Source of the DNA: Nitratiruptor sp. YY08-10
GTDB taxonomy: Bacteria; Campylobacterota; Campylobacteria; Campylobacterales; Nitratiruptoraceae
Direction: 5' to 3'
DNA length: 64,000 bases
Assembly (NCBI RefSeq): GCF_016629565.1
Contig: NZ_AP023057.1
Span: 434,001 to 498,000 of the forward strand
The first letter of the stretch is position 1; the number at the start of each line of letters is the position of its first letter. The notes beneath the pieces are model-generated. The model did no database searches, was not told the DNA's origin, and worked only from the letters and a program-made list of their open reading frames with translations. Shown here piece by piece: positions 51,181 to 58,461 of the stretch. Made by a program: the position numbers and the translations under genes.

Positions 51181-52188
51181 TTACAGTTCGCTGTTTTGAA
51201 TGAGTTTGCTAAAAAGAGAGAAGTCGCACACTTTCTCTTCTACATACCGCATATACATTTTTTGTTCGGGATAGGTGAGTTTTGGCTCTATTGGATGGTT
51301 GGAAATAATATCGATAACCATCTGAGGCAAATTGATGCCAAGCTGGGTTGCGAAATAGGTCCATGCTGGGAAACGGGGATTGATCTCTATCAGATAGATC
51401 TCGTTTGTACTATAAATAGCCTCGAACTCAAACGGACCGTGCCAGTTTGTCTCTTGAACAAATTTTTGTACACTCTCAAGAAGTGTTTTATTGTTGATGC
51501 TTACTGCACTCCATACTTTTCCAAGATCCGTCGTAGTCAATTTTTTAATGCCTACGCCCCCTAGGAGTTGACCATATTTGGCAACGCCTACGTAATTGAT
51601 CTCTTCACCATTGACGATGCTTTGTACAAGCAGAGGAAAACCCCATTCATTTGATATTTTATAAAAGTATTCGATCGCCTCATCCAAGCTGTTAGCTCTG
51701 TAGGCTTTGTAGTAGTTTCCTTTAATAAAGATAGGAAAGCCGATAGTTTTTGTTGCATTGATCAGATCATCCAAAGAGGCGATTTCGATCGTGAAAGGAT
51801 GTTTGATATCGATTTGTTGACACAATTTTTGAAGGTTTTTCTTTTCTCTCAATTCAAACTGTTCAGTGGTTGGAACGCATGTAGAAATACCCAAGTTTTG
51901 TAAAACATTTTGATATTTGATAATTTGTGGAAGTTCCGCATCGAGAGTGGGAAGGAGTATATCGATCTCACTTTTTTCTTTGATATATTCAAGTCTCTCT
52001 TTCAGTGCTTCAAAACCTAGCGAAGGATAGGGCATCAAGTAGACATGTTCAAAGATATCTTGGTAGATACCCGGTTCTGTAGGATCATAGCTTAGTCCTA
52101 TGAGAGGATATTGTAAAAGACTCTTGGCAACTCCAATTCCTGGTGCTGGATTGTCGGAATTATTCAAACCACTGATGGCTATCTTCAT
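51181..52188 (-). CDS. ATP-grasp ligase
   Basis: A 335-residue ATP-grasp protein. An N-terminal Rossmann-like domain (MKIAISGLNN) is followed by the ATP-binding domain with Lys156 in PIFIKGNYY, VQSIVNGEE and the metal-binding IEINPRFPAW (Glu268, Asn270). Such enzymes activate a carboxylate as acyl-phosphate and join it to an amine, thiol or amino acid. ATG 52188 overlaps the PqqD stop as ATGA, so the two are coupled; the longer open frame is a shadow of the pqqD-like gene. With the decarboxylase next to it, an amino-acid-derived amide or short peptide is a reasonable product. The substrate is unknown. Confidence 0.82.
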   Translation of the reverse strand: MKIAISGLNNSDNPAPGIGVAKSLLQYPLIGLSYDPTEPGIYQDIFEHVYLMPYPSLGFEALKERLEYIKEKSEIDILLPTLDAELPQIIKYQNVLQNLGISTCVPTTEQFELREKKNLQKLCQQIDIKHPFTIEIASLDDLINATKTIGFPIFIKGNYYKAYRANSLDEAIEYFYKISNEWGFPLLVQSIVNGEEINYVGVAKYGQLLGGVGIKKLTTTDLGKVWSAVSINNKTLLESVQKFVQETNWHGPFEFEAIYSTNEIYLIEINPRFPAWTYFATQLGINLPQMVIDIISNHPIEPKLTYPEQKMYMRYVEEKVCDFSLFSKLIQNSEL

Positions 52189-52421
52189 TGGATTAATCCA
52201 TAAATTTTTGTTTTTTGCAAAAAGTCTTCCACATCGATATAAATTTCCTGCCAAGGTACATCATATTCTTGAGAAAGTTCTTGCGCTATAGCTTTTTTAC
52301 TTTTTCCCTCTTTGAATTTTTCAATAATTTTTTTTCCGGTTTCATTAATTTGAAACGATACACCGATACTTGGAATAAACCCCATTTCTTTGTCGTTAAA
52401 AACGATCTCATCGATCAACAT
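52185..52421 (-). CDS. PqqD-like small protein
   Basis: A 78-residue protein with the PqqD pattern: QINETGKKIIEKF, then a hydrophobic helix with AIAQELSQEYDV, and the final IDVEDFLQKTKIYGLI. PqqD domains usually bind a peptide precursor and present it to a modifying enzyme. Here the partner is an ATP-grasp ligase, not a radical SAM protein, and no precursor peptide gene is seen nearby. It has AAAGGAG upstream of its ATG and is the first gene of the minus-strand operon. Confidence 0.75.
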   Translation of the reverse strand: MLIDEIVFNDKEMGFIPSIGVSFQINETGKKIIEKFKEGKSKKAIAQELSQEYDVPWQEIYIDVEDFLQKTKIYGLIQ

Positions 52422-52449
52422 ATTTGCTCCTTTGTCACGATTTTCGAAA

Positions 52450-52455
52450 ATTATA
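52450..52455 (-). promoter_or_regulatory. Predicted -10 element of the seven-gene PqqD/ATP-grasp operon
   Basis: TATAAT on the minus strand, 28 bases before the pqqD-like ATG, with AAGGAG in the short leader. All downstream genes to 45804 are coupled or almost so, and no other good promoter was found among them. Confidence 0.55.
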
Positions 52456-52463
52456 AGGATATG

Positions 52464-52481
52464 AGGTTAATGGAGTGTTAA
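52464..52481. promoter_or_regulatory. Tandem 7-bp repeat over the -35 region of the PqqD/ATP-grasp operon
   Basis: AGGTTAA and GTGTTAA lie in the same orientation, four bases apart (11-bp period), over the -35 region of the promoter at 52450. This spacing is that of OmpR/PhoB-type sites, and the operon encodes such a regulator, so autoregulation is plausible. The match is only five of seven bases. Confidence 0.4.
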
Positions 52482-52516
52482 TAAAAATTCAAAAAAATAT
52501 AAGAAATAATAAGTAC

Positions 52517-52535
52517 AATTATGATAATCAATTTC
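52517..52535. promoter_or_regulatory. Fur-box-like operator upstream of the porin operon
   Basis: The 19-bp segment matches the classical Fur consensus at 15 of 19 positions, with the core ATGATAATCA intact. It overlaps a possible -10 (TACAAT, 52514-52519), so bound Fur would block transcription of the porin operon in iron-rich cells. Campylobacterota Fur sites are variable, so the evidence is good but not final. Confidence 0.6.
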
Positions 52536-52551
52536 AAATAAGGAGAATGAG

Positions 52552-53829
52552 ATGTCATATTTACAAAAAATTGTTCCTTTATCATTGGTAGCTGCCATGA
52601 GTCTACCTGCATTTTCTTCAGAACTGGAGGAGCTCAAAGCTCAAATGAAAAAGATGCAAGAGCGAATTTTGGAACTTGAGATGAAACAGCAAAAGCAGGA
52701 AGAACGTTCCCAAACGATGCTCGAAGAGCTTGGAACGATTCAAAGTGAAGGGTGGTTTCAGACGGTAGATATATCAAAAAGTCACAGTGGACTTGGTTCT
52801 GCTGCATCAAAAGTCTACTATACGCAAAATCCTCTGTCAATTGGTGGGTATGGAGAGTTGTACTGGGCCGACAGTAGTGGGAAAAAGGCAATTACAGATG
52901 TGTATCGTTTTGTTCCCTATATCGGTTATAAATTTAATGATTGGATCGTTTTGAACAGTGAGCTTGAGTTTGAGCATGGTGGCGAGGAAGTTGCAATAGA
53001 GTTTTTGTATCTTGATTTTTTATTGAGTGAAAATCTTAATGTGCGAGTAGGAAACCAGCTTGTTCCTGTCGGACTTGTAAACCAAAAGCATGAACCAACG
53101 CTCTTTCCTACTGTTTTGCGCCCAGAAACAGAAACATATATCATTCCAAGTACTTGGAGTGAAACCGGTGTCATAGCGTATGGAAAAATTGGCAAGAGCG
53201 ATTTTGACTACCATATCGGTATCATCAATGCTTTAAATGCGAACAATGCAGATGCCGCTGCTTCAGGAAAAAAATGGATACGGAATGGTCGATGGGGCTC
53301 AGCAAATAAAGCGACGATGCAAAAACTTGCTCTTACCGGACGACTGGACTATAGTGGCGTAGAAGGATTGACGGTAGGAGGGTCCTTTTACTATGGCAGC
53401 GGTTCAAACGCAAAAACAAATGTACCTGATACTTCTTTGTTTATTTATGATCTACACGCGATGTATCAAAAAGATGCTTTTATGTTTCGAGGACTTTTTA
53501 CGCAAGCCTTTTTGGATAATGCCAAAAATATAGCACCTTCTGCACCTAAAAAAGCGCAAGGGTACTATCTTAATGCGGAATATGATGTTTTGAGCTTGGT
53601 GGGTTCTTCTTTTCGTCTTCCTGTTTTCATACAATATGAAAACTACAATCCCGTCAAAGAGACAGCCAATGGGCAAAACGAGATGAATGATATTGAAAAC
53701 TGGACGTTTGGTTTCAATTTTTATCCACATGAGCAAGTGGTTTTGAAAGCAGATTATCAGATAAAGGACAATAATGATGGCAGTGACAAAGTCGATACGG
53801 TTTCCCTCGGGCTTGGTTTCATTTTCTAA
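52552..53829 (+). CDS. Outer-membrane porin with N-terminal coiled coil
   Basis: A 425-residue protein with a signal peptide (ending near MSLPAFSS), a short coiled coil (about 24-60, ELEELKAQMKKMQERILEL), and a beta-barrel of about 16 strands ending LGLGFIF. The N-terminal coiled coil is typical of trimeric porins of the phosphate-selective/DcaP type. The segment SIGGYGELYW opens the barrel. It has AAGGAG before the ATG, and a Fur-box-like site upstream. In this operon it probably passes an iron-related solute. The substrate cannot be told from sequence. Confidence 0.8.
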   Translation: MSYLQKIVPLSLVAAMSLPAFSSELEELKAQMKKMQERILELEMKQQKQEERSQTMLEELGTIQSEGWFQTVDISKSHSGLGSAASKVYYTQNPLSIGGYGELYWADSSGKKAITDVYRFVPYIGYKFNDWIVLNSELEFEHGGEEVAIEFLYLDFLLSENLNVRVGNQLVPVGLVNQKHEPTLFPTVLRPETETYIIPSTWSETGVIAYGKIGKSDFDYHIGIINALNANNADAAASGKKWIRNGRWGSANKATMQKLALTGRLDYSGVEGLTVGGSFYYGSGSNAKTNVPDTSLFIYDLHAMYQKDAFMFRGLFTQAFLDNAKNIAPSAPKKAQGYYLNAEYDVLSLVGSSFRLPVFIQYENYNPVKETANGQNEMNDIENWTFGFNFYPHEQVVLKADYQIKDNNDGSDKVDTVSLGLGFIF

Positions 53830-53830
53830 A

Positions 53831-54343
53831 ATGCTACTATTTTTCGTTTTATCTGTTCATACTATGTATGCAAAAGGAATCGATATAGCTTCGATCCTTT
53901 TGCTCTCTTGTCCAGATGCGAAAAAAGTAGAGAAAAAGACACTTTTACTGGATAAACAGCAGTTTCTTGCCGTACAAAAGTTGGCAAAAAAAAGAATCAA
54001 ATCCAAAGTTGTTCGATACTATCAAGCTATGAATGGAAAGAAACGTGTCTGTACAGCTATAGTGCTTTCTCAGAAGGTTCGAACCAAAAAAGCGGCTATT
54101 TTATATATTATAGATGAACATGGAACTTTAAAACAGATTGAGATTCTTGCCTTTGCCGAACCCCCTGAATATGAACCAAAAAAGAGCTGGATTCAACTGG
54201 TAGAAGGAAAGAGTTTGCAAGATCCTTTGAGGGTTGGAAGGGATATTCCAAAAATCACAGGAGCGACGATGTCTGCTAGAAGCGTTGTAGATGGGGCAAG
54301 AATCGCATTGGCAATATATGAAATTGCCATAAAAGGGAAGTAA
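53831..54343 (+). CDS. Periplasmic FMN-binding domain protein
   Basis: A protein of about 170 residues with a signal peptide (MLLFFVLSVHTMYA) and a C-terminal FMN-binding domain. The site KITGATMSA is the S/T-G-A-T motif to which ApbE attaches FMN on threonine, and the apbE gene lies nearby at 55.1-56.1 kb. I choose ATG 53831, one base after the porin stop; ATG 53774 has AAGGA upstream and would add 19 residues over the end of the porin. It resembles the RnfG/NqrC family module and may pass electrons from the membrane to a periplasmic acceptor, possibly ferric iron. Confidence 0.82.
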   Translation: MLLFFVLSVHTMYAKGIDIASILLLSCPDAKKVEKKTLLLDKQQFLAVQKLAKKRIKSKVVRYYQAMNGKKRVCTAIVLSQKVRTKKAAILYIIDEHGTLKQIEILAFAEPPEYEPKKSWIQLVEGKSLQDPLRVGRDIPKITGATMSARSVVDGARIALAIYEIAIKGK

Positions 54344-54807
54344 TGCGTTTTTTTGTGATAAAAGATATCCGAAAACACGCGTCTATGCGATATTTGCTCA
54401 CATTTTTACTGAGTTTGATGATGCTTTCACTCGTTTCACATCTGTTACTGTATGGGTGGAAGTATGGGTGGAATCCTGAAAGTGTATTAGCAACGATTAT
54501 GGGAAATGAGGAACTTTTTATTGAGCCTTTGCCTTTTGAAGAGATTCTTTTACAGGTGCATACCAATCTCTTTTTTATTGTTATTGTACTTAGTATTATT
54601 GCTGCAAGTTTTATACGCCTCTATGAAAAGAGAAATAAATATATACATCTTCTTTTTATAACGGCACTCTTTTCTCAAATGTTCTTTTTAGCGATTCCTT
54701 TATGGGGACTTGGTGGAGTATTTGCGTGGGCAATATGCGAAGTATTTTGGCATTTAGTGGCTTTTTATATGGCTGCTAAAACGGTATGGGGGCTCAATTT
54801 TTCATGA
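54343..54807 (+). CDS. Small membrane protein with four helices and conserved-looking histidines
   Basis: A 154-residue membrane protein of unknown family. Helices are around 15-38, 73-90, 98-118 and 125-148. Histidines lie within or near the first helix (LVSHLLLYGW), in the second (LLQVHTNLFF) and in the last (FWHLVAFYM), so haem b ligation is possible. The ATG overlaps the preceding stop (TAATG), and the stop overlaps the next start as ATGA, so the porin, FMN protein and two membrane proteins form one unit. A part in electron transfer to the FMN domain is inferred. Confidence 0.65.
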   Translation: MRFFVIKDIRKHASMRYLLTFLLSLMMLSLVSHLLLYGWKYGWNPESVLATIMGNEELFIEPLPFEEILLQVHTNLFFIVIVLSIIAASFIRLYEKRNKYIHLLFITALFSQMFFLAIPLWGLGGVFAWAICEVFWHLVAFYMAAKTVWGLNFS

Positions 54808-55187
54808 AATATATCGAATCTGGTTACAAGGCAATTATCTTTTGGATTGGAGTATTTACAATTGCCATAGTACTGTCTGGAGTAACTCTTTTTTTTATGA
54901 ACGGAATTTGGCAATCACACACTTTTGGACACTCCTTACAGATTGTTACGCCCCATCTTTTTTCTATGTCTGTGATGGTGTTTGTGATACTCCATTTTTT
55001 TCTTTTCATGAAAAATAGCGAGACATTTTTGCGATGGAGTATGCTTCTTTTTGGGTTTGCTTTTATTGATCAGATGGCTTTACTACTCAATCAAACAAGT
55101 ATACATCTTCTATTTTCTTTTCTATTCACTCTGCAGTTTGCTGCAGTAAGCGTATATATGCTGATACGGTTGAAGGAAAAAGGATAA
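54804..55187 (+). CDS. Small membrane protein with four helices and histidines
   Basis: A 127-residue membrane protein, unknown family, with four hydrophobic stretches. Histidines are at SHTFGHSL, VTPHLFS and VILHFFLF. ATG 54804 overlaps the previous stop as ATGA; an earlier ATG at 54786 would add six residues. It probably acts as a pair with the preceding membrane protein. The last 62 bp overlap the 3' end of apbE on the other strand. Confidence 0.65.
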   Translation: MKYIESGYKAIIFWIGVFTIAIVLSGVTLFFMNGIWQSHTFGHSLQIVTPHLFSMSVMVFVILHFFLFMKNSETFLRWSMLLFGFAFIDQMALLLNQTSIHLLFSFLFTLQFAAVSVYMLIRLKEKG

Positions 55188-56118
55188 AACCGGTTGGTTT
55201 GGTAATAGAAATTCTGTTGCCATGTTTTATCATCGTACCGTTTTCCAAGATAATAAGATAATCGATGTTTTTAAGAGAATGTGCAAACATCCATGCTTTC
55301 TTTAAAGGCATAACACCGATTGCTGTGGCCATTGCATCTAAAAATGCGTTTTGTCGACTCCCTGCCAATGTAACCGAGGCGATCAATTTTTGTGATCTTC
55401 TACTTTTAGGATCTATGAGGTGATTGTAACGGGTATCCTTGATATAGCGCCTATATGTTCCGCTGGTCGATACTGCAAAATCTTTTGAGTCTGATTGAAT
55501 GATGGCTACAGTTTCAGATACAAAAGGGTTTTGTACTTTAACTTGACACTCTCCGAGACAGCGAATATCGCCACTAAGACCAAAAACTGCTTGTTGAACA
55601 CCCATTTTCTTAAGTCTCGCTGCTGCAAGATCGATAGCGTATCCCTTTCCCATACCACCGAGATCTATCATGATGGCTTTATCCAGGCAAATGCTATTTT
55701 GATCCATATGAATGCCATCAACGCCAAGAGTTGCCTGTTTGAGATCTTTAATTGTTGGGATTTTCTCTTGAGAAGTGCCAAAGCCAAAAAGTTGTTTTGT
55801 TAGCGATCCGATTGTAATATCAAAGTAACCATCGCTTCGTTTGTAGTAGTACAAACTTTTTTCTATGGCATCTTGCACTATTGGATCTGTTTGGATACAG
55901 CGGTGATGGTTGAGTCTGTATACAAGTCCATTTGGGAAAGAGGAGAGGGAAGCTTCTACTTGTTTGAGTGTTTGGAAAAAGATAGATGTTGCAAAAGAGT
56001 ATTTTTGATCAAGAGTGATAAATGCAAAAGTGCCCATGGCTACCTGCTCTCTGTGTATGGGTGCCGAGAAAAGTGACAAAGAGAAAAAAAAGAGCAGCAA
56101 TATGGTTTTTACACGCAT
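55126..56118 (-). CDS. apbE: FAD:protein FMN transferase ApbE
   Basis: ApbE takes FMN from FAD and attaches it to a threonine or serine of periplasmic FMN-binding domains. The 330-residue protein has a signal peptide (MRVKTILLLFFFSLSLFSA, no lipobox Cys), MGTFAFI, IDLGGMGKGYAID, LSGDIR, the TSGTYRRYI loop and DAMATAIGVM. The start is ATG 56118; the longer open frame upstream would read over the promoter and the next gene's start. Its likely target is the FMN-binding protein at 53.8-54.3 kb, which carries the acceptor motif. Confidence 0.92.
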   Translation of the reverse strand: MRVKTILLLFFFSLSLFSAPIHREQVAMGTFAFITLDQKYSFATSIFFQTLKQVEASLSSFPNGLVYRLNHHRCIQTDPIVQDAIEKSLYYYKRSDGYFDITIGSLTKQLFGFGTSQEKIPTIKDLKQATLGVDGIHMDQNSICLDKAIMIDLGGMGKGYAIDLAAARLKKMGVQQAVFGLSGDIRCLGECQVKVQNPFVSETVAIIQSDSKDFAVSTSGTYRRYIKDTRYNHLIDPKSRRSQKLIASVTLAGSRQNAFLDAMATAIGVMPLKKAWMFAHSLKNIDYLIILENGTMIKHGNRISITKPTGFILFPSTVSAYIRLLQQTAE

Positions 56119-56170: not shown

Positions 56171-57823
56171 ATGCAACGCAGAGATTTTTTGCGAAGTAGC
56201 GCACTCTTTAGTCTTATCGCTGTTACTCCTGCTCTTGCCAAAAAGGATATCGCAGATCATCAGCCGACACAAGTTCTTGAAGGAGACGAATTTGATTTAC
56301 ATATTAAAAAGACATGGGTACATTTTGGCGACAAGCCTGTTATAGCAACCACTGTGAACGACATGTTGCCGGCTCCTACGCTAAAATGGAAAAAGGGTGA
56401 TATCGTTACGATTCACGTGACTAACCATCTTGATGAGCCCACCTCTTTGCATTGGCACGGTATCATCTTGCCCTATACGATGGATGGAGTACCGGGTGTG
56501 AGTTACCCTGGTATTATGCCAGGAGAGCGCTTTACGTATCGGTTCAAGGTAGAGCAAAACGGTACCTACTGGTATCACTCTCACAGCGGTTTTCAAGAAC
56601 AGACTGGTTTACACGGGGCAATCGTGATTGATGACGATATAGATGCCGATAGAGACTATGTGGTCGGTTTTCACGACTGGAGTGACGAAGATCCAGATTC
56701 CATATATAGAAAGTTAAAACTTCAAAGCGGATACTACAATTTTCAAAAAAGAACCGTTTTCGATTTTGCAAAAGAGGTACAGCAGTTTGGATTTGCAAAA
56801 GCTTTGCAAAGACGAGCAATGTGGAATAAGATGCGTATGGATGATAGAGATCTTGCTGATGTGACTGCCTATACGTATACCTACTGCATCAACGAACATA
56901 CAAACAAAAATCCAGCCTATTTTTTCTTTAAACCTGGTGAAAAGGTTCGTTTGAGACTGATCAACCAATCGGCAATGACCTATTTTGATGTGAGAATTCC
57001 CGGATTGAAAATGAAGGTCGTTGCTGCAGATGGCGTGCCTGTTGAACCGGTTGAGGTGGATGATCTTCGCATCGCGGTGGCTGAAAGTTATGATGTACTG
57101 GTTTGTCCAACGCAAGAAGCCTATACCATATTTGCTCAAAGTATTGATCGGTATGGGTATGTGTATGGAATATTGAGCACTTCACCTCAAAAAAGAGCTC
57201 CTATACCGAAGTTCTATCCCTATGAACCTCTCTCTATGGTGGATATGGGTATGGCTATGGATGGGATGAAAATGAATCGTATGAAGAAAAAAATGGCTCA
57301 TGAAACAAAGATTCCAAAGACCCCTTTGCCTATGAAAAAGGGAATTGCTTGGACGATGGAAGCAAAGGGCGCTATGTATAGACTTGATGATCCGGGAGTT
57401 GGACTGAGAAGCGTTCAAAGAAAAGTTTTAACGTATGCTGATCTTCATACGCCAAATCTCGAAAACAGATTTCCTGATCGTGAGATCGAATTGCACTTAA
57501 CGGGCAATATGGAGCGCTATATTTGGGCAATAAACGGGATTCCTTACTACGAATCAAAACCTTTGCAGTTTCGTTACGGCGAAAGACTGCGAATAACGTT
57601 TATCAATGATACTATGATGAATCATCCGATGCATCTTCATGGTATGTGGAGTGATATCGAAATAGCAGATGGAAAAATTTTGCGAAAACATACCGTCAAT
57701 GTGCAGCCGGGCAGTAAACTGAGTATGCGAGTCAATGTGGATGCCACAGGACGATGGGTTTTTCACTGCCATCTTCTGTATCACATGGGTGGGATGTTTC
57801 GAGAAGTAAAGGTGCTGTCATGA
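56171..57823 (+). CDS. copA: Multicopper oxidase, CopA type, Tat-exported
   Basis: A 550-residue periplasmic multicopper oxidase. The N terminus has a Tat motif (RRDFLR). Copper ligands are LHWHGI, YHSHSG, HPMHLHG and the final FHCHLLYHMGGM, with the type-1 cysteine. A methionine-rich stretch at about 355-380 (MGMAMDGMKMNRMKKKM) is a likely soft-metal binding loop. Such enzymes oxidise Cu(I), and some also Fe(II). It is followed by copB with an ATGA overlap, which favours a copper role; the Fur-linked neighbours keep iron oxidation open. AAAGGA precedes the ATG. Confidence 0.9.
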   Translation: MQRRDFLRSSALFSLIAVTPALAKKDIADHQPTQVLEGDEFDLHIKKTWVHFGDKPVIATTVNDMLPAPTLKWKKGDIVTIHVTNHLDEPTSLHWHGIILPYTMDGVPGVSYPGIMPGERFTYRFKVEQNGTYWYHSHSGFQEQTGLHGAIVIDDDIDADRDYVVGFHDWSDEDPDSIYRKLKLQSGYYNFQKRTVFDFAKEVQQFGFAKALQRRAMWNKMRMDDRDLADVTAYTYTYCINEHTNKNPAYFFFKPGEKVRLRLINQSAMTYFDVRIPGLKMKVVAADGVPVEPVEVDDLRIAVAESYDVLVCPTQEAYTIFAQSIDRYGYVYGILSTSPQKRAPIPKFYPYEPLSMVDMGMAMDGMKMNRMKKKMAHETKIPKTPLPMKKGIAWTMEAKGAMYRLDDPGVGLRSVQRKVLTYADLHTPNLENRFPDREIELHLTGNMERYIWAINGIPYYESKPLQFRYGERLRITFINDTMMNHPMHLHGMWSDIEIADGKILRKHTVNVQPGSKLSMRVNVDATGRWVFHCHLLYHMGGMFREVKVLS

Positions 57824-58461
57824 AAAAGTTTGTTGTATTATTGTTGGTGGTTACATTCATGTTTGCTGGAGGCGGAGATATCTTTCGGTATCAGATGTTA
57901 GTCGATCAGTTTGAAGCCTCATCACAAGGCAAACCTTCTTGGGATGCCAGTTTTTTTATGGGGTATGATGCGAATAAAATCTATCTGTATAGCGAGGGAG
58001 ATAGCCAAGAGCAGGAAAACGAGATCGTCTTTTCCCATACTATTACTCCATTTTTCGATCTACAAATTGGAATGGAACACGATACGAAAGACAAAGGAGC
58101 CACTTTTGGTGAAATTACCCTTATGGGGCTGGCTCCTTACTTTATTGAGACGAGAACAAAACTGCTTTTTGGCGAAGGAGGTGTGGGAATTGATTTTGAT
58201 TTTGAATATGAAACGCTCTTTACACAAAGGCTCATTTTAAATTCAAGAGTTGAGAGTAGAATCTTTAGCAAAGACATTGAAAAAGCTGGCATTTTTCAAG
58301 GACTCAATGACATAACCGTTGGTTTTCGATTGCGTTATGAAATACAAAGAGAGTTTGCTCCCTATATTGGATATTCTATTACCAGAAATTTTGGTGGTTT
58401 GAAAAGAGAAGAGGGCCAAGTGAAAGATCGATTTGTTGTAGGCATTCGGTTTTGGTTTTAG
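57820..58461 (+). CDS. copB: Copper resistance outer-membrane protein CopB family
   Basis: A 213-residue protein with a signal peptide (MKKFVVLLLVVTFMFA) and the CopB/PcoB barrel: YDANKIYLYSEGD, GMEHD, LAPYFIETR and the late IGYSITRNFGG, with a C-terminal aromatic residue. The Met/His-rich N-terminal extension of the Pseudomonas form is absent. ATG 57820 overlaps the copA stop as ATGA. With CopA it should handle copper in the outer envelope. Confidence 0.85.
   Translation: MKKFVVLLLVVTFMFAGGGDIFRYQMLVDQFEASSQGKPSWDASFFMGYDANKIYLYSEGDSQEQENEIVFSHTITPFFDLQIGMEHDTKDKGATFGEITLMGLAPYFIETRTKLLFGEGGVGIDFDFEYETLFTQRLILNSRVESRIFSKDIEKAGIFQGLNDITVGFRLRYEIQREFAPYIGYSITRNFGGLKREEGQVKDRFVVGIRFWF

Follow-up and report, generated by a model that had tools for sequence, protein, structure and literature searches.

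Gene content of the locus

The window studied here is a stretch of 64,000 nt (positions 434001 to 498000 of contig C1) from the 1.82 Mb genome of the hydrothermal-vent bacterium Nitratiruptor, and it contains four closely packed genes on the (+) strand behind a Fur box (52517..52535). The first gene encodes an outer-membrane porin with an N-terminal coiled-coil segment (52552..53829), the second an exported FMN_bind protein predicted to be a substrate of ApbE (53831..54343), and the last two encode membrane proteins of four helices each, TM1 (54343..54807; alignment and AlphaFold2) and its paralogue TM2 (54804..55187; alignment, hhalign and AlphaFold2). The apbE gene, for an FAD:protein FMN transferase with a signal-peptide-like N-terminus (PF02424, 187 bits), lies on the (−) strand at 55126..56118, convergent to the operon, with its end overlapping that of TM2. 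A single base separates the porin and FMN genes, the FMN gene meets TM1 at TAATG, and TM1 and TM2 overlap at ATGA; these junctions suggest a single, translationally coupled transcript. The ORFs, Pfam scores and junctions thus bear out the earlier note, which had described an operon for a porin, an FMN-binding protein and two membrane proteins with apbE adjoining. The porin scored 18.4 bits against Porin_O_P (PF07396), below the curated cut-off of 20.9, and a search by sequence for solved relatives returned none. To the left of the operon (51181-52421) lie genes for a product that we take, by eye, to be ATP-grasp-like and for a small PqqD-like protein (PF05402), a pair with a possible role in peptide modification; the pair is syntenic in a congener without the cassette. 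Immediately past apbE (56171-58461) are copA, encoding a multicopper oxidase, and copB.

The FMN_bind assignment rests on a PF04205 score of 24.5 bits (cut-off, 22) and on the acceptor motif ITGATMSA, which together uphold the earlier description of an FMN-binding protein with an ApbE acceptor motif; the N-terminus has a signal-like segment. The general motif [ST]GA[ST]x[ST], here TGATMS, was present in 78 of 84 orthologues, and five of the six deviating sequences read TGATMGA. A genome-wide search for ApbE, FMN_bind proteins and NqrB/RnfD found a single member of each of the first two groups and none of the third. The FMN_bind protein is therefore the likely substrate of ApbE, and the proposal that ApbE modifies it stands by elimination; a covalently bound FMN is likely, judging from sequence. 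When the FMN protein was searched by sequence against solved structures, the only match was doubtful (E = 0.005) and did not cover the FMN site. A gene for RibBA, which we identified by reading its sequence and take to be a flavin biosynthesis enzyme, lies near the cassette in 44 loci.

The Fur box and other iron genes of the genome

The box, AATTATGATAATCAATTTC, ends 16 bases before the start codon of the porin and agrees with the enterobacterial Fur consensus used for scoring, GATAATGATAATCATTATC, at 15/19 bases, so that rescoring reproduced the site reported earlier. A score of 15 was reached in 0.5% of Markov shuffles of the upstream region, and the operon box is among about ten sites of the genome (1.82 Mb) that match TGATAATNATTWTCA with no more than one mismatch. 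Among the orthologous promoters with usable sequence (n = 62, Campylobacterota), 59 contained a match of at least 14/19, in comparison with 19 of 662 control promoters taken from the same loci with divergent partners excluded (Fisher p about 7e-66, a value that ignores the relatedness of loci). These matched controls rule out chance AT-richness as the source of the box. An unbiased 7-mer search, with no motif assumed, ranked TGATAAT first (57/62 versus 51/662), and a pair of boxes, near −100 and near −40, occurs in several loci. Control by PerR instead of Fur was ruled out, as the half-sites fitted the Fur type better in 56 of the 62 promoters and the PerR type better in only 2; the genome encodes three FUR-family proteins. 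The box at the promoter is thus kept in relatives, as in a member of the Fur regulon. One detail of the earlier note was not confirmed, namely that the site overlaps a possible promoter: a consensus scan of 52400-52552 returned no sigma-70-like promoter, and TACAAT at 52514-52519 might serve as an isolated −10 element.

Further Fur-boxed iron operons were found in the same genome. An OprD-type porin gene is followed by feoA and feoB (identified by sequence and gene order), with twin Fur boxes ahead at C1:1160826-1160892; here (L082:1329-4854, i.e., C1:1157328-1160853), a porin is paired with iron uptake for a second time. A 27 kb plasmid carries another Fur-boxed iron island (contig C2:9000-19000; L081 and L176), where a FUR homologue is divergent from genes for DUF2325, an OprD porin, ferritin, imelysin, a DUF4405-like membrane protein, a multihaem cytochrome c and FTR1, with Fur boxes between the FUR homologue and the island. 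This island looks like a cytochrome-based equivalent of the flavin cassette; across the 6.7 kb compared, the plasmid does not differ from pNitYY0814_PLS of Nitratiruptor sp. YY08-14. For the three TonB-dependent receptors of the genome, no site in the retrieved stretches scored higher than 13/19. The earlier link of the locus to Fur and iron is strengthened by the conservation of the box, by these operons and by the iron-related genes that adjoin the module and its porin homologues (see below), and we consider it very probable that the module is under iron control.

The membrane pair, the porin group and the cassette in relatives

The earlier note had also mentioned two His-containing membrane proteins, and alignment of their orthologues substantiated this with four near-invariant intramembrane His: H73 (88/88) and H137 (86/88) in TM1, and H51 and H64 (86/86 each) in helix 2 of TM2. 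TM1 also conserves R92 and an acidic periplasmic loop, GNEE(x)F(x)(D/E)P. The two proteins are homologous by hhalign (probability 94.5%, E = 8e-8), and AlphaFold2 predicted four long helices for each (pLDDT 91 for TM1 and 78 for TM2). Pfam offered no family for TM1 and no consistent family for TM2, and 21 members of each yielded no match at E ≤ 0.1 to the PepSY, MsrQ/ferric-reductase, DUF4405 or cytochrome b561 models. Homology to the DUF4405-like proteins of proteobacterial clusters was not detected, as an hhalign comparison with that set of only four sequences gave no significant score. Searches with the single-chain models (Foldseek and VIA-align) matched only generic helical bundles, which does not speak against a shared fold, and no natural TM1-TM2 fusion occurs among 89 loci. 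Charge patterns suggest an N-in topology, in which H73 and H51 would lie towards the periplasmic side of the membrane and H64 towards the cytoplasmic side. The interval of 13 residues between H51 and H64, which share a helix, is similar to the spacing in a pair of stacked b haems, and TM1 and TM2 may together form a split b-type cytochrome. SdhC and SdhD, two small anchors that share a haem, provide a functional comparison. Another is the FezC homodimer, which was modelled to form haem sites (PMC11334425).

We analyzed 20 whole genomes of the phylum and 69 further loci (from Sulfurimonas, Sulfuricurvum, Hydrogenimonas and relatives), leaving out duplicate genomes. Where the flank sufficed, TM1 was accompanied by the FMN gene and TM2 in 58/58 loci, by the porin in 53/58 and by apbE in 52/58, and the cassette kept its gene order while flanking genes varied. 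Its distribution is patchy: TM1 occurs in 22 of 298 Campylobacterota genomes, and the FMN protein in only two species of the genus Nitratiruptor. A congener without the cassette retains its left flanking genes, suggesting that the cassette was gained or lost in one piece. In three Campylobacterota loci (L125, L127 and L138), the cassette and an imelysin-DHOR-imelysin cluster are transcribed divergently; the equivalent imelysin cluster of Pseudomonas aeruginosa, PA4370-PA4373, is Fur regulated (PMC3143127). A gene whose product we read from its sequence as an MntP-like, presumably manganese-exporting protein lies near the cassette in nine loci (L043, L051, L104, L106, L107, L110, L112, L131 and L135).

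Outside the phylum, the porin group comprised 22 plasmid records, of which 14 loci were examined. The porin adjoins imelysin, mostly with DHOR, in 6/14 (Parabacteroides, two Prevotella, Pseudoalteromonas, Phocaeicola and Bacteroides), Rieske and DHOR in 3/14, and FMN_bind and ApbE in 3/14 (Ideonella L053, Methylocystis L171 and Bradyrhizobium L173); 2/14 have no such neighbour. The last three clusters share with the Nitratiruptor operon the porin (29% identity, E = 3e-39, for that of Ideonella), the FMN protein (40% over 65 aa), ApbE and a small membrane protein that conserves several His. They differ in having a single small His-rich membrane protein in place of TM1 and TM2, weakly DUF4405-like in Ideonella (17.4 bits; cut-off, 26.7). 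One small His-rich membrane part is thus swapped for another beside a homologous porin-FMN-ApbE core, and this swap is the strongest indirect sign that TM1 and TM2 may feed electrons to the flavin. In Ideonella, a di-haem CcP/MauG gene lies just upstream of the porin, and copper oxidases flank the Methylocystis analogue.

A candidate route for ferric iron and its alternatives

Taking together what can be read from sequence, namely the operon, its conserved Fur box, the sole ApbE/FMN_bind pairing, the His-conserving paralogous pair and the iron-linked relatives, we propose that the module is repressed by Fur and acquires iron by reducing it in the periplasm; as a complete statement, we hold this somewhat more probable than its negation. 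At low iron, Fur would leave 52517-52535 and the porin-FMN-TM1-TM2 operon would be transcribed. The porin would let ferric complexes in, and ApbE would attach FMN covalently to the exported FMN_bind protein, a step strongly indicated by elimination. TM1 and TM2, together forming a haem-carrying b-type cytochrome, would pass electrons from the quinol pool or the cytoplasm to the flavin, which would turn Fe(III) into Fe(II) in the periplasm. The Fe(II) would then be imported by FeoAB, whose Fur-boxed operon lies elsewhere in the genome and whose coupling to the module is presumed. The earlier note had already put forward a passage of electrons across the membrane to reduce ferric iron brought in by the porin, a step that stays conjectural. 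Against this reading, the operon contains no iron transporter, and the alpha- and betaproteobacterial analogues tested have no Fur box by the enterobacterial consensus.

A further objection is that Fur control does not by itself mean uptake, as iron-sparing electron carriers are Fur controlled too. The same box would suit a flavin carrier that replaces haem or Fe-S carriers at low iron, in a flavodoxin-like switch, and delivers electrons to a terminal reductase or peroxidase rather than to ferric iron; the analogy with flavodoxin and ferredoxin has been argued (PMC8238504). Some loci do hold cytochrome genes inside the cassette. The porin and FMN genes are separated by a di-haem cytochrome c peroxidase/MauG gene at L144:5283-6413 and in L147, L150, L151 and L152, and in part of Sulfurimonas a multihaem cytochrome c gene lies between TM2 and apbE (L037:10323-11423, L041, L115, L117 and others). 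However, loci with accessory cytochromes are a minority (9 and 7 loci, with the multihaem one nearby in 9), TM1 and TM2, if cytochromes, need haem themselves, and the porin co-transcribed in 53/58 loci belongs to a group found beside imelysin iron proteins. We therefore regard iron-sparing respiration as unlikely.

Nine loci have a multihaem cytochrome c nearby; in several of them it follows TM2 and has a weak MtrC-like domain match. The porin shares a transcript with a redox protein, and both features would fit export of electrons from the cell. Porin and flavoprotein, with the multihaem cytochrome where present, would then make up a conduit through the outer membrane for the reduction of external minerals (ferric oxides, for instance), as a flavin counterpart of porin-cytochrome conduits. 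Yet a lone FMN domain of such small size would hardly reach across the outer membrane, the multihaem partner is absent from most loci, and Fur repression suits iron scarcity rather than iron respiration; we give this possibility little credence. The neighbouring genes raise the question of metal specificity as well, as a module handling the redox state of copper or another metal together with the CopA multicopper oxidase and CopB would explain why copA-copB follows apbE in the window and lies near the cassette in L033 and L034, and would agree with the copper oxidases of the Methylocystis analogue. These three adjoining pairs count against the iron-acquisition reading, but they amount to only 3 of about 85 loci, and the promoter motif is of the Fur type in nearly all loci. 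Copper was accordingly dropped as the main explanation, and a role in copper or other metal homeostasis is the least probable of the readings considered here.

The proposed iron-acquisition module has several known relatives. Flavinylated systems have been linked to iron reduction, and Fur-controlled PepSY clusters and DUF4405 cytochromes have already been published (PMC8238504, PMC11334425). The PepSY-like, MsrQ-like and DUF4405 iron reductase clusters (Meheust 2021, PMC8238504; Huang 2024, PMC11334425) likewise combine ApbE, an extracytosolic flavinylated protein and a His-conserving membrane protein; Fur control is reported for PepSY-like clusters, and iron reduction is proposed for flavinylation-associated clusters, as here. 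In contrast to these clusters, the Nitratiruptor operon co-transcribes a porin, a word absent from the main text of both papers, and its membrane part is the paralogous TM1/TM2 pair, which by sequence matches none of the PepSY, MsrQ/ferric-reductase, DUF4405 or cytochrome b561 models. The imelysin/EfeB-like clusters have in common with it the porin group (as in the porin-imelysin-DHOR arrangement of Bacteroidota), Fur regulation (P. aeruginosa PA4370-PA4373) and an extracytosolic redox partner beside the porin; that partner, however, is a di-haem oxidoreductase with imelysin rather than a predicted flavinylated protein with a membrane donor. The P19-FTR1 system, with an FMN_bind or thioredoxin-like partner, also handles iron in the periplasm with a possibly flavinylated partner, but neither P19 nor FTR1 is encoded in or beside the operon, and the FTR1 of the strain belongs to the other cluster, on the plasmid. 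The idea of a flavinylated iron reductase is thus already known; for the porin-linked version, the TM1/TM2 family or the Nitratiruptor operon, we found no description in open-licence full text.

A bolder proposal, which we advance tentatively and rate at rather less than even, is that TM1 and TM2 form heterodimeric, split b-type cytochromes of a new family that has no sequence relationship to the cytochromes already associated with flavinylation, and that the porin of the operon serves as a dedicated gate for iron in a redox-coupled uptake route and is shared with the imelysin/di-haem systems of other phyla. If the iron-acquisition reading is right, Campylobacterota would have a siderophore-independent, flavin-based route for ferric iron, and the flavinylation field would gain a membrane electron donor of no known family. 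One porin group occurs with an FMN protein, with imelysin/di-haem oxidoreductase and with Rieske/di-haem oxidoreductase, three different extracytosolic redox partners, through which the role of the little-understood imelysin clusters becomes testable.
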